64,000 bases of DNA, from NCBI RefSeq assembly GCF_019599145.1, contig NZ_CP080647.1, positions 3,472,001 to 3,536,000 on the forward strand, read 5' to 3'. The stretch comes from Streptomyces akebiae (lineage in GTDB: Bacteria; Actinomycetota; Actinomycetes; Streptomycetales; Streptomycetaceae). The stretch's first letter is position 1; every line of letters starts with the position of its first letter. The notes beneath the pieces were generated by a model, which searched no databases, was not told the origin of the DNA, and saw nothing but the letters and a program-made list of their open reading frames with translations. Of the stretch, positions 10,131 to 13,920 are shown in pieces. The position numbers and the translations under genes are program-made.

Positions 10131-10454
10131 CTACTGCATGACCGCCATGGCGAGCGCACGGCGGGCGCGCAGCGAGGCGCGCTCGGCCCTGCGCTGCATC
10201 CGCTGAGCGACCGCCAGGCGCATGGCCCGGCGTTCCTGCTCAGCCTGGTGCAGGCGCTCGTGCATATGCGCACGAGCCAGGGCTTCTGGCATGAGATGCA
10301 TTTCTCGGGTCCTGTTCTGACGCGAGGCGTTCGCGCCGGTGGTGGTGAAATCAGGTGTCGCGGAGCCGGCGGGCTCGCTCGTGGACGGCTTCATCGGGGC
10401 CTGCTTCTTGGGGTCGTGCGTGAGGGGGCGGTCGATCGTTCCGGTGATGTTCAT
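10131..10454 (-). CDS. Hypothetical Arg/Ala/Met-rich protein coupled to wblC
   Basis: The 107-residue product has an unstructured N-terminal half and a strongly helical, Arg/Gln/Met-rich C-terminal half with no Cys pairs, signal peptide or membrane segment. Its ATG overlaps the stop codon of wblC (ATGA), so the two are translationally coupled and this protein should be made whenever WblC is induced. I do not recognise the family. It may be a small nucleic-acid- or ribosome-associated factor, but that is only suggested by charge and context. Confidence 0.7.
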   Translation of the reverse strand: MNITGTIDRPLTHDPKKQAPMKPSTSEPAGSATPDFTTTGANASRQNRTREMHLMPEALARAHMHERLHQAEQERRAMRLAVAQRMQRRAERASLRARRALAMAVMQ

Positions 10455-10819
10455 GCTGTGACCGGGTTCTTGCGCGGGCGACCACGGGGCCGCTTGCGGG
10501 CCACGACGACACCCTGGACGAAGAGCTCGCCACCCCAGACGCCCCAGGGCTCACGCCGCTCCTTGGCGCCGGCGAGGCAGGCCTCCATCAGCGGGCAGGT
10601 GCGGCAGAGGGACTTGGCGTACTCGACATCGGCCGGCGACTCGGCGAAGAAGACCTCCGGGTCGTAGGAGCGGCAGGGGACGGGCACGCCGAGGTTCTCG
10701 ATGGCGTCGTCGAGCGCGGTGAGCGCGGTGAGCGGGGTCAAGGTGGAGTCCTCCGTGAGGCCGGGCGGGGGGATCGTTTCGGAAGGCGGTACGGACGGGG
10801 CGTGCGCTTCGAGTTGCAC
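10451..10819 (-). CDS. wblC: WhiB7-type transcriptional regulator WblC
   Basis: The 122-residue protein has the four Fe-S-ligating cysteines of WhiB proteins (C49, C72, C75, C81), the turn GVWGG at 93-97 preceded by EPW, and a C-terminal AT-hook RGRPRK (112-117). The AT-hook distinguishes WhiB7/WblC from other WhiB paralogues. Known role in the family: it binds the principal sigma factor and AT-rich DNA beside the -35 to activate intrinsic antibiotic-resistance genes, including its own. GTG 10819 has GAGGAA eight bases upstream. A long leader containing an ORF and an intrinsic attenuator precedes the gene. UvrD2 upstream and the ABC1 gene downstream match the mycobacterial whiB7 neighbourhood. 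Confidence 0.95.
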   Translation of the reverse strand: MQLEAHAPSVPPSETIPPPGLTEDSTLTPLTALTALDDAIENLGVPVPCRSYDPEVFFAESPADVEYAKSLCRTCPLMEACLAGAKERREPWGVWGGELFVQGVVVARKRPRGRPRKNPVTA

Positions 10820-10934
10820 GGTTCGTCTTCCTCGTCTGGTCGTTCCGGCCTGTTGGCCGGTTGCGGCTGGTACCGGGTTCTCTTCTTGTCCCGAGGCCCC
10901 TTCGCTCTGTAGTCCCTGGTCGGGGGCAAACAGA

Positions 10935-10969
10935 AGGGCCGCGGATCCCGGATGGGGTTCCGCGGCCCT
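10935..10969 (-). promoter_or_regulatory. Intrinsic attenuator hairpin in the wblC leader
   Basis: An 11-base-pair perfect stem (AGGGCCGCGGA / TCCGCGGCCCT) with a 13-base loop is followed on the minus strand by TCTGTTTG. It lies about 115 bases upstream of the wblC start and 23 bases after the stop of the leader ORF. Its 5' arm could pair instead with GGGCCTGAA at 11022-11014, inside the leader ORF, using TTCAGGGCC at 10972-10964 (one bulged G). That is the expected form of a terminator/antiterminator switch. Confidence 0.75.
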
Positions 10970-10992
10970 GAAGGCGCCGACCTGATCGTCGA

Positions 10993-11316
10993 TCAGGCTG
11001 GATCACTCCAGGGTTCAGGCCCACGGAAGGCCCACATCAGGTGGTGCTGCGTCGTCTGCTTCCGGAATCCGGCACCGGCCGCCGCGAAGGCATAGGCGTG
11101 GGCCTGTGCCTCTACTGCTGCTTCCAGTGCCTTGGTCGGTCGCTCATTGCGCTCACGGACGGGAAGACCCGCCAGAGACACGGAGGACGCCGGACGGCCG
11201 CCACTGATGGCGGACAGACCGGTGCCCAGGTTCGAGACGCCGAGCATGCACAGGGAGACGGCCGAGCGATCGGTCATTTTGACCGTGCTGATGTAGCTGG
11301 TGTTGATGCTGATCAC
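10993..11316 (-). CDS. Leader ORF (107 codons) upstream of wblC attenuator
   Basis: The frame from GTG 11316 has an excellent ribosome-binding site (AGGAGG, eight bases upstream). It encodes a 107-residue product beginning VISINTSYISTVKM and ending PEPWSDPA, with no recognised domain. It ends just before the attenuator hairpin, so its translation could control which RNA structure forms. Leader ORFs that sense slowed translation are known for whiB7/wblC genes of actinobacteria, although they are usually shorter than this. Whether the whole frame or only an internal part is translated cannot be decided here. An upstream in-frame ATG (11385) has no ribosome-binding site. Confidence 0.6.
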   Translation of the reverse strand: MISINTSYISTVKMTDRSAVSLCMLGVSNLGTGLSAISGGRPASSVSLAGLPVRERNERPTKALEAAVEAQAHAYAFAAAGAGFRKQTTQHHLMWAFRGPEPWSDPA

Positions 11317-11427
11317 TGGACTCGCCTCCTCTCGGCGTCTACGGGGACCGGCGCGAACCAATCCGACGGATATGAAGTACATCACGAAACCAGGGCCTTC
11401 GAGAAGGCCGCTGCTCTCGTGCCTAAG

Positions 11428-11470
11428 AACCTATGGGGATTGCCGGGGCATGCGCAAACTATTTTTTCGA
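11428..11470 (-). promoter_or_regulatory. Candidate autoregulated wblC promoter with AT-rich element
   Basis: On the minus strand an A-run (TCGAAAAAATAG, 11470-11459) directly precedes a -35-like TTGCGC (11457-11452). After an 18-base spacer comes TAGGTT (11433-11428), a TANNNT -10. AT-rich DNA just upstream of the -35 is the known binding architecture of WhiB7/WblC. It starts 11 bases after the uvrD2 stop codon in an otherwise very GC-rich region. Confidence 0.6.
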
Positions 11471-11480
11471 CGAGTTCGCA

Positions 11481-13703
11481 TCAGTCGCTCTCGTCGTCGC
11501 CCTCAAGCTCCCGACCTGCACAGATGTCGAGAACATCGGCGCCGTAGCGCTGCAACTTGCGGGCGCGGACGCCGGGGATGCGGGCGAGTTCAACCGGAGT
11601 GCTCGGCCCCGCTTCCGCGATCGCCATCAGTGTCCGGTCCGTGAAGACACAGAAGTCGGGTTGGCCACTGCGGCGTGCCTGGACCGCGCGCCACTCTCGC
11701 AGTCGCTCGTAGAGGCCCTCGTCCATGTCGGAGGGACAGTCCTCGCAGCGCATCAGCTTCATCTCGCCGGCGTCCCGCAGAGTGCGCCCGCAGACACGAC
11801 AGCGCGCCGGGGTGCGGCTGGTGCGGCGCGGTGCCCCCTCGGTGCCGCCGCCTACGAGGTCACCCGCCCGGGCGCCCGGGAAGCCCACTTCGACGCCCCC
11901 GGAGCCGCCCGTGCCGGTCCGTCCCGGGCCGGCGGTGGATCCGGGGCGCAGGCCGTTGAGGAATCGGCTGGGGCGGCGGTTGGGGCGGGTACCGGGCGAG
12001 CGGGACAGGGCCCAGGAGACGGAGAGCTGTTCGCGCGCGCGGGTGACGCCCACGTAGAGAAGTCGTCGCTCCTCCTCGATCTGTTCGTCCGTTCTCGCGT
12101 AGGTGATCGGCATCATGCCCTCGGCGACCCCGACGAGGAAGACGACGTCCCACTCAAGGCCCTTCGCGGAGTGCAGCGAGGCGAGCGTGACGCCCTGGAC
12201 GGTCGGGGCGTGCTGGGCGTTGGCCCGCTCGTCGAGTTCCGCGACCAGGTCGCCGAGCGTGGCGTGGGGCTTGGCGGCGGCGAAGTCGTGGGCCAGGTTC
12301 ACCAGGGCCGCGAGGGAATCCCAGCGTTCCCTGACCGCCCCGGAGCCCGCCGGTGGTTCACCGGTCCAGCCCTCGCCGGACAGCACGGCCCGTACCTGAG
12401 AGGGGAGGTCCACGGCGTCCTCAAGGAGGGTGTCGTTGCCCCCGAAGCGCGCGGCCGCCCTCAGCGCGGCCCCGGCCTTGCGCACCTCGGGGCGGTCGAA
12501 GAACCGTTCCGCGCCGCGCAGCTGATACGGCACTCCGGCGTCCGCGAGTGCCTGTTCGTAGGTTTCGGACTGGGAGTTCGTGCGGAACAGGATGGCGATC
12601 TCGCTCGCGAGGACTCCGGAGGCGATGAGGTCGCGGATGCGGTGGGCGGCCCCCTCGGCCTCGGCGGGCTCGTCCGCGTACTCGGTGTACCGGGGCTCGG
12701 GGCCCGGGGGCCGCTGGGAGATCAGTTCGAGGCGGTGGTCGGCGGCGCGGCCGCGGGCCTGGGAGAGCAGTGCGTTGGCGAGGTGGACCACCTGCGGGGT
12801 GGAGCGGTAGTCGCGGACGAGTTTGACGACGGTGGCCCCGGGGTGACGGTGACGGAAGTCGAGCAGATGGTCGGGAGTTGCGCCGGTGAACGAATAGATC
12901 GTCTGGCTGGCGTCGCCCACGACGCACAGGTCGTCCCGGTCGCCGAGCCACAGCTCCAGGAGGCTCTGCTGGAGGGGGCTGACGTCCTGGTACTCGTCGA
13001 CCACGAAGTGCTGGTACTGGGAGCGGACCTGCTCGGCGATGTCGTGGCGGTCCTGGAGGATACCGACCGTGAGCAGGAGCACGTCCTCGAAGTCGATGAC
13101 GGCCCGCTCGCGCTTCAGGTCCTCGTACGTGGCGTAGATCTGGGCGATCTCGGCGGGGTCACGGGGTGCCTCGCGGCCGTGTTTGGCGGTCGCGGCGGCG
13201 TAGTCGGAGGGGACGGTGCGGGTGACCTTGGACCACTCGATCTCGGCGGCCGCGTCGCGCAGTTCATTGCGATCGAGACGGATGCGGCAGGCGGCGGCGG
13301 CGTCCGCGACGAGTTGGATCTTGCGGTCGATGATGCGAGGCATGCCGCCGCCGACGGCTTTCGGCCAGAAGTACTGGAGTTGACGCAGTGCGGCCGAGTG
13401 GAACGTCCGGGCCTGGACTCCGGCGGCGCCGAGTTGGCGGAGACGGCCGCGCATCTCTCCGGCAGCCCGGTTGGTGAAGGTGACGGCCAGCACACTGGCG
13501 GGCTGGAGCATGCCGGCTCGCACTCCGTAGGCGATGCGGTGGGTGATCGCACGGGTCTTGCCCGTACCGGCGCCGGCCAGCACGCACACCGGACCGTGCA
13601 GCGCGGTGGCCACCGCGCGCTGCTCGGGGTCGAGCCCTTCGAGCACCGCGTCGGCCGAGTCGGGGACCTGCGGGAAGAGGGTGGAATGCGTTGCTGCTGT
13701 CAC
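11481..13703 (-). CDS. uvrD2: UvrD2-type SF1 DNA helicase with tetracysteine and HRDC domains
   Basis: The 740-residue protein has a Walker A motif GAGTGKT (about 44-50), Walker B VVDEYQD, the motif QTIYSFTGA and the other SF1A helicase motifs. After the helicase core comes a Cys4 segment (CRVCG...MRCEDCP) and a C-terminal HRDC-like domain (VELARIPGVRARKLQRYG). This order matches mycobacterial UvrD2. GTG 13703 is chosen because the sequence upstream is not protein-like, though the ribosome-binding site is poor and the start is uncertain by a few codons. It is divergent from the mycoredoxin gene and followed by the wblC promoter. Confidence 0.93.
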   Translation of the reverse strand: MTAATHSTLFPQVPDSADAVLEGLDPEQRAVATALHGPVCVLAGAGTGKTRAITHRIAYGVRAGMLQPASVLAVTFTNRAAGEMRGRLRQLGAAGVQARTFHSAALRQLQYFWPKAVGGGMPRIIDRKIQLVADAAAACRIRLDRNELRDAAAEIEWSKVTRTVPSDYAAATAKHGREAPRDPAEIAQIYATYEDLKRERAVIDFEDVLLLTVGILQDRHDIAEQVRSQYQHFVVDEYQDVSPLQQSLLELWLGDRDDLCVVGDASQTIYSFTGATPDHLLDFRHRHPGATVVKLVRDYRSTPQVVHLANALLSQARGRAADHRLELISQRPPGPEPRYTEYADEPAEAEGAAHRIRDLIASGVLASEIAILFRTNSQSETYEQALADAGVPYQLRGAERFFDRPEVRKAGAALRAAARFGGNDTLLEDAVDLPSQVRAVLSGEGWTGEPPAGSGAVRERWDSLAALVNLAHDFAAAKPHATLGDLVAELDERANAQHAPTVQGVTLASLHSAKGLEWDVVFLVGVAEGMMPITYARTDEQIEEERRLLYVGVTRAREQLSVSWALSRSPGTRPNRRPSRFLNGLRPGSTAGPGRTGTGGSGGVEVGFPGARAGDLVGGGTEGAPRRTSRTPARCRVCGRTLRDAGEMKLMRCEDCPSDMDEGLYERLREWRAVQARRSGQPDFCVFTDRTLMAIAEAGPSTPVELARIPGVRARKLQRYGADVLDICAGRELEGDDESD

Positions 13704-13742
13704 ACGGCCATGCTGCCAGGTCGCCGGAGGCGGTCGAGCAGG

Positions 13743-13751
13743 TTGTCCACA
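13743..13751 (+). promoter_or_regulatory. DnaA-box-like site in uvrD2/mycoredoxin intergenic region
   Basis: An exact TTGTCCACA nonamer lies 40 bases upstream of the uvrD2 start in the divergent promoter region. One isolated box cannot be an origin; a regulatory role is inference. Confidence 0.4.
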
Positions 13752-13920
13752 GGCAGGCCCCCGCAGTCGTACTAATGCGGCAGTCGCTCCTGTGTTCCGG
13801 TGCGCCCGCCGCGGGGCAGCGGTGCCGGCCGTCACCCGTGTGGGGGAATGGCGGGCCTGTCGCGTACGTTCCACTCACTGCGACCACGCACCCCTCTGAC
13901 CGTGAAGGAGCGCCAGGGAC

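Follow-up and report, generated by a model that had tools for sequence, protein, structure and literature searches.

The wblC (whiB7) leader of Streptomyces akebiae carries an attenuator whose long upstream open reading frame (uORF) we read as a pan-amino-acid, pan-inhibitor stall sensor, with a probability of about 0.72. The uORF is followed by a predicted intrinsic terminator, and a conserved candidate antiterminator encloses a hairpin at the uORF stop codon. Such uORFs hold amino acid inventories far more complete than expected by chance, each rare amino acid occurring about once. From these sequence comparisons we infer the pan-amino-acid sensing role, which would also be the reason why the uORF is long. 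The window analyzed is a 64,000-nucleotide stretch of contig NZ_CP080647.1, and all features described below lie on its minus strand.

The wblC leader and its uORF

The gene that follows the leader is WhiB7/WblC (wblC, 10451..10819; GTG start; Pfam PF02467, 55.3 bits), adjoining uvrD2 (11481-13874), which lies upstream of the leader and has UvrD and HRDC domains. A reading made from the sequence only had placed an A-run directly upstream of a -35/-10 pair after uvrD2, and both were located. The A-tract AAAAAAT (11461..11467) is separated by 13 bases from the uvrD2 stop and lies three bases upstream of the -35 of a predicted promoter, TTGCGC-18-TAGGTT (11428..11457; -35 at 11457-11452, -10 at 11433-11428, spacer of 18 bases), with the transcription start predicted near 11421. 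In the accessible text of PMC7157823, the WblC box sits three bases before the -35. As a candidate WblC box, the A-tract matches GAAAWY at 5 of 6 bases and at the published spacing, and this stretch is conserved in Streptomyces. CATAG[GC] is present in 171 of 175 Streptomyces leaders. A simple sigma-70 scan did not flag the promoter because the -35 and -10 are non-consensus, and Rfam gave nothing at the gathering score for the leader, its three matches falling far below with E up to 5. On the other side of wblC, a 107-amino-acid ORF (10131-10454) has an ATG that overlaps the wblC stop (ATGA) and is possibly translationally coupled to wblC; Pfam and NCBIfam searches with it returned no match.

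As proposed by the sequence-only reading, the leader holds a 107-codon ORF (the uORF, 10993..11316; GTG start, TGA stop) with a good ribosome-binding site, AGGAGG at 11330-11325, 8 bases 5' of the GTG. All 20 amino acids are encoded. The same reading called the ORF much longer than a usual leader peptide. The length itself stands, but long uORFs are common in wblC leaders. In a first set of 45 leaders, 39 of which belong to other families of the class, 44 had uORFs of 23-202 codons; in a second set of 60 leaders, 54 had uORFs of 11-158 codons. Of 121 Streptomyces genomes searched, 120 have both the uORF protein and WblC; the sole genome with neither (G116) is an assembly of 540 contigs, and the absence is perhaps an assembly gap. 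The uORF was present in all 184 Streptomyces loci examined, 100 of which had been collected via the uORF itself and 80 via WblC alone, and AGGAGG stood 14-16 bases before an ATG or GTG in 182 of them. In a set of 232 family leaders, none had an open +1 frame and 16 had an open +2 frame. Nine of the 184 loci were dropped as identical or lacking the Shine-Dalgarno pattern, which left 175 uORFs, and 18 of the 120 genus places were not included in the genus sampling. The distance from the Shine-Dalgarno sequence to the motif, taken modulo 3, fell into all three classes (185, 27 and 2 of 214), possibly as a result of different motif hits, and was set aside.

Amino acid inventory of the uORFs

All 20 amino acids occur in 168 of the 175 distinct Streptomyces uORFs, the remaining 7 lacking Cys only, and in 47 of 50 uORFs from other Streptomycetaceae genera. 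As a yardstick, length-matched segments drawn at random from 35 long window ORFs, themselves picked mechanically by length and GC3, reached all 20 in 15% and 22%. In the Streptomyces and Streptomycetaceae sets, the wrong frames deviated too, in three of four cases (z -7.1, -3.4, -5.9 and -0.9), and shared descent therefore inflates those sets. Since relatives share residues by descent, the across-family test is what counts.

A script selected the other-family uORFs, taking in each leader the ORF with the best Shine-Dalgarno sequence, then the longest, ending near the terminator. Six Streptomycetaceae rows were left out of the class-wide inventory tests, and uORFs outside 30-150 codons were excluded from the frame-controlled tests of both sets and from the one-per-family test. 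The 38 other-family uORFs of the first set had 45 missing amino acids, as against 87.8±6.0 after the residues were pooled and redealt (0/2000); cut to 30-150 codons (36 uORFs), the numbers were 35 and 80.5±5.8, respectively (0/1000). The second set comprised 60 leaders, 54 with and 6 without a uORF plus terminator, and yielded 52 uORFs of 30-150 codons; 4 loci already in the first set had been dropped, and several families are common to both sets. Its 52 uORFs had 78 missing amino acids against 139.7±7.3 (0/1000), and 20 of them contained all 20 amino acids, with 3.4 expected. The wrong frames +1 and +2 showed no deficit in the first set (z 0.6 and 0.0) or in the second (z 1.7 and -0.3). When a single uORF was taken from each family (28 families plus the window), 50.0 amino acids were missing against 74.0±5.4, again with no deficit in the wrong frames (z +2.8 and +1.2); P values elsewhere in this work, Fisher tests included, ignore phylogeny, and these one-per-family runs are the exception. 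The deficit persisted without the last 12 codons, with 4 against 74.1 missing in 47 Streptomyces uORFs, 6 against 76.7 in the set of 50 and 164 against 283.4 in 88 other-family uORFs.

All 20 amino acids were found in just 35 of the 88 other-family uORFs. Cys was missing from 25 of the 88, and Trp from 38 once the last 12 codons were removed; among the zeros in other families, Glu was not reduced (7 vs 5.4) and Asn hardly (6 vs 7.9). Cys occurred exactly once in 151 of 175 Streptomyces uORFs, 45 of 50 from other Streptomycetaceae and 32 of 44 other leaders; in the second set (52 uORFs) it occurred once in 29 and never in 19. The variance/mean ratio with one uORF per family was 0.36 for Trp and 0.38 for Tyr, the low Trp dispersion being partly due to a codon near the end, inside RNA elements. 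Phe, Asp, Cys, Ile and Met gave 0.59-0.74, Lys, Asn and Glu showed no such reduction (1.0-1.1), and His was near 0.9. A run of codons for a single regulated amino acid was not found in the uORF; all 20 are present, the rare ones once or twice per uORF.

Turnover of rare amino acid sites

The sole Cys codon of the uORF is codon 23 (11248..11250), where 159 of 175 Streptomyces have Cys. Trp is encoded twice, 5th from the end and at codon 95, 13th from the end (11032..11034); 171 of 175 Streptomyces have Trp at the latter place. None of these 171 has another Trp further upstream, and the four Streptomyces without the 13th-from-end Trp all have a Trp 29th-31st from the end. Among other genera, none of the 17 uORFs with Trp at this place has another upstream, and 32 of the 33 without it have an upstream Trp, at 19 different distances. 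The Trp 5th from the end, found in 175 of 175 Streptomyces and 48 of 50 uORFs of other genera, does not make the upstream Trp dispensable. Because it is no substitute, evolution seems to set the boundary of the sensor between 13 and 5 codons from the end.

Three further sites in Streptomyces uORFs were compared in this way. Where Tyr75 is lost, another Tyr is present in 13 of 13 uORFs, compared with 19 of 162 where it is kept; the corresponding counts are 9 of 16 and 17 of 159 for Cys23, and 42 of 42 and 99 of 133 for Asn57. Eleven further sites tested in Streptomyces uORFs showed no difference in turnover, in most cases because the residue is present elsewhere regardless.

Terminator, antiterminator and stop-codon hairpin

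Structure tests were carried out on 160 of the 175 leaders, or on the 47 that remained after 88% filtering. Column-pair covariation (APC) was swamped by one clade split, and arm-swap tests were therefore used; 150 random segment pairs served as calibration, with z averaging 0.33 and reaching -2.6 at the lowest. No usable structure emerged from RNAalifold when applied to the gappy 5' alignment.

The 11-bp intrinsic hairpin that had been read 23 bases after the ORF stop was recovered at 10935..10969, between the uORF and wblC. Its stem (10969-10959:10945-10935) is extended by 3 more pairs, and the fold has -30.2 kcal/mol with z -5.8 (0/200 shuffles). The 5' arm is common to the predicted terminator and antiterminator. 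The U-tract is weak, and a simple terminator scan did not flag the hairpin because this tract is broken (CCUUCUGUUU). As an exact pattern, the terminator occurs once per genome in 15 of the 21 genomes searched and is absent from the other 6. By eye, the stem sequence (GGCCGCGGA...UCCGCGGCC) is near-identical in most families sampled, perhaps reflecting three strands forced to change together. Directly before the terminator lies a C-rich CCUCC (CCUUC in the window, 10970-10979), which recurs in most of the listed other-family leaders and is complementary to the uORF Shine-Dalgarno sequence; a pairing of the two is plausible, yet the flanking bases show no covariation, and this candidate was rejected.

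The predicted antiterminator is built from the end of the uORF and the terminator 5' arm. Its 5' strand (11017..11033) pairs with 10969-10955 at -22.6 kcal/mol in the window, with a median of -22.5 in 160 Streptomyces leaders and an 8-bp core in 141 of the 160. Swapping arms among the 47 non-redundant Streptomyces leaders caused a slight weakening (z -4.5, 29/2000), the antiterminator having 3 variant arms on one side where the calibration pairs needed at least 8 per side. The swap signal across families was weak (p 0.028; 54 leaders from 20 families, 10 of them hand-picked Streptomycetaceae), and no support for the antiterminator came from shuffles of synonymous codons (mean z -0.38, with p<=0.05 in 2 of 54). 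By eye, altered terminator arms go with matching uORF changes in leaders L284, L288, L292, L293 and L294, the computed duplexes of L288 and L292 being weak (-10.0 and -9.9 kcal/mol, respectively). Enclosed by the antiterminator is a predicted hairpin across the uORF stop codon, SH (10977..11001; arms 11001-10991:10987-10977). The arm swap for SH gave z -7.2 in Streptomyces, and across 20 families (54 leaders) the pairing had -13.1 kcal/mol, compared with -9.8 kcal/mol when partners were swapped (0/5000).

Further hairpins were predicted in the leader. P1, located where the transcript is predicted to have its 5' end (11383..11421; -25 kcal/mol, z -4.55; swap z -6.9, 0/2000), may protect that end. 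P2, before the Shine-Dalgarno sequence (11344..11364), had a swap z of -9.7 (0/2000) and a fold z of just -1.46. The Shine-Dalgarno hairpin CGCC-GAGAGGA-GGCG (11323..11337), which holds the AGGAGG, is near-invariant in the 47 leaders, so that no covariation test was possible. Inside the uORF, at codons 62-83, is UH (11069..11132; -36.1 kcal/mol, z -3.95), whose outer arms gave a swap z of -8.0 (0/2000) and whose dG ranged from -28.5 to -55.4 in 160 of 160 Streptomyces leaders. Support for UH from synonymous shuffles was weak, with a mean z of -0.73 at its place and an equal value elsewhere too. UH may pause the polymerase and let the ribosome catch up.

Folding model of the switch

In the mechanism we propose, a ribosome finishing the uORF would cover the stop hairpin along with part of the antiterminator strand; with that strand covered, the terminator would form and wblC would be off. 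If the ribosome stalled early or were missing, the antiterminator strand and the stop hairpin would be free. Both would then form ahead of synthesis of the terminator 3' arm, and transcription would continue into wblC. Shortage of any charged tRNA, or any ribosome poison, would produce the same stall signal.

Partition-function folds of 222 leaders were computed for these states. With the ribosome upstream and the terminator 3' arm absent, the mean probability was 0.90-0.93 for the antiterminator and 0.99 for the stop hairpin. With RNA free only from 13 bases past the start of the stop codon, both were 0 by construction, since the RNA was taken as covered. In full-length folds the terminator wins (0.81-0.82), and the choice of the switch must therefore be kinetic. 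A map of stall sites, for which 12 covered bases from the A site were assumed, gave antiterminator probabilities of 0.93-0.98 in Streptomyces and its family, and 0.71-0.75 in other families, for stalls at least 15 codons before the stop; two upstream stall positions in the window drop to 0.27 and 0.34. Stalls 13-14 codons before the stop gave about 0.5-0.7 and stalls at 10-12 codons 0.22-0.57, and stalls in the last 9 codons reached 0.53-0.65 in Streptomyces, via pairings other than the conserved one. The modeled stall map thus supports an upstream ON zone and draws no clean line within the last 14 codons. As the Trp 13th from the end (0.51) and the Trp 5th from the end (0.53) are not separated by the folding map, the boundary between them rests on the turnover data.

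Alternative explanations

All features computed for the switch hold whatever the cause of the stall, and the leader could be an ordinary wblC attenuator, with a uORF whose length only has to suffice for catching antibiotic-stalled ribosomes and whose amino acid content is incidental. The published mechanism, as far as the accessible text goes, covers antibiotics, and antibiotic stalling by itself requires no amino acid repertoire, which counts against the sensor reading. Incidental content, however, predicts random dispersion, whereas the missing amino acids amount to half to two thirds of the permuted numbers and a Trp, Tyr or Cys lost from its site tends to be replaced elsewhere; we regard such an incidental content as rather unlikely. 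Different pairings within the leader were also weighed. The competing pairing put forward by the sequence-only reading, 11022-11014:10972-10964, is present in the window, with 8 of 9 positions paired, a single G-G mismatch and -11.9 kcal/mol, and might serve ribosomes stalled near the uORF end, but all 8 pairs occur in only 31 of 160 leaders and the pairing does not covary (swap z +1.2). The conserved pairing is instead the overlapping and stronger register 11033-11017:10969-10955, and that the former pairing is the antiterminator appears most improbable. Hardly better are the chances of a classical four-segment scheme, with a 1:2 hairpin 11028-11020:11013-11006, or of an intra-uORF relay of GGTGCC pairings. 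The window sequence allows these pairings, but swap z was -0.2 for the 1:2 hairpin, which has few variant arms and little power, and 0.0 and +2.1 for the relay, without covariation.

It is also improbable that the uORF encodes a functional small protein, as the sequence-only reading had allowed, or a specific arrest peptide, for which the amino acids would be retained. The blocks KMTDRSVV, ERPTKALE and MWAFRG..PW are conserved in Streptomyces uORFs and would fit such a product, but the conserved C-terminal peptide motif is located inside RNA elements. In 74 Streptomyces, the uORF diverges equally at codon positions 1, 2 and 3 (0.187, 0.204 and 0.191, respectively), compared with 0.060, 0.037 and 0.188 for wblC; the codon-position ratio is 0.98 against 3.88, so the third position does not change faster than the first two and the uORF bears no protein-type selection. 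The uORF protein had no match in Pfam or NCBIfam, and its best match outside the family was no better than E 0.02. Within the blocks, the choice among synonymous codons is conserved as well; divergence at fourfold sites is 0.03-0.18 in the conserved blocks, below the 0.22 of wblC, with 0.36 in the spacer. RNA pairing explains this in part. Many blocks hold A/T-ending codons (GAT, GGT, CGA, GCA, TAT), and the UH hairpin accounts for some of them. In codons 55-61 (11134-11154) and other blocks, the synonymous codons are near-invariant and several are A/T-ending, with CGA59 in 173 of 175; no explanatory pairing partner was found for the near-invariant codons of such blocks.

Comparison with known leaders

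Attenuation of whiB7/wblC mediated by a uORF has reportedly been described by Lee, Lee and Roe in 2022 (Mol Microbiol 117:179; doi 10.1111/mmi.14834) and by Burian and Thompson in 2018. In the trpL and hisL leader attenuators, the position of the ribosome on the leader ORF decides between terminator and antiterminator, and these leaders are short, with runs of the one regulated amino acid. The wblC leader would follow the same ribosome-position logic, but its uORF has 107 codons, with each rare amino acid about once or twice.

In their accessible parts, PMC11550727, PMC9618640, PMC10727445, PMC12121999 and PMC13393426 describe whiB7/wblC attenuation by a uORF with antitermination upon stalling, and the excerpts of PMC11550727 and PMC12121999 add induction by amino acid starvation; in the latter, antibiotic stalling within the whiB7/wblC uORF is described as still untested. 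The core of the sequence-only reading, an autoregulated wblC with a uORF, a terminator/antiterminator and stalling that leads to read-through, agrees with the accessible text of PMC11550727, PMC9618640 and PMC10727445. The gene family, the uORF, the Rho-independent terminator and an antiterminator that overlaps uORF and terminator are the same as in the attenuators of PMC11550727, PMC10727445 and PMC12121999, which as published, in the sections available, are induced by antibiotics and by amino acid starvation. Those sections do not mention the stop-codon, 5' or intra-uORF hairpins or the repertoire, although Lee 2022 may. A literature search of partly accessible sources found no statement of such a uORF amino acid repertoire; Lee 2022 or Poulton 2024, on alanine starvation and cited in the excerpted PMC13370626, could contain one. 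According to the accessible text of PMC12421871, antibiotic stalling on a uORF is likewise thought to cause antitermination in the are5sc/tiaA ARE-ABCF leaders, but these have tiny uORFs (MLV, MVGDDDISG), stalling at the start codon and one drug group. The toiL/topAI uORF of Escherichia coli resembles the present one in that a single uORF senses several classes of ribosome inhibitor with stalls at different places, and differs in that no amino acid repertoire is reported in the available portion of PMC12121999.

Biological significance

Although the attenuator itself is already known, a leader ORF under selection for its amino acid inventory, and not for one amino acid, drug or protein, would be a new design rule. 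For the wblC/whiB7 uORFs of Actinomycetia at large, we hold it to be somewhat better than an even bet that selection maintains one or more codons for (nearly) every amino acid, near the minimum for the rare ones, upstream of the antiterminator/stop-hairpin end, and that starvation for any amino acid and any ribosome poison are read by one cis switch. If true, this would explain the length of the uORFs, mostly 60-150 codons, the response of one switch to unrelated antibiotics as well as to starvation, and the use of a common regulator for resistance and nutrient stress. It would predict, codon by codon, which removal blinds the sensor to which amino acid, and the wblC leader would be a bacterial, cis-acting counterpart of general amino acid control.
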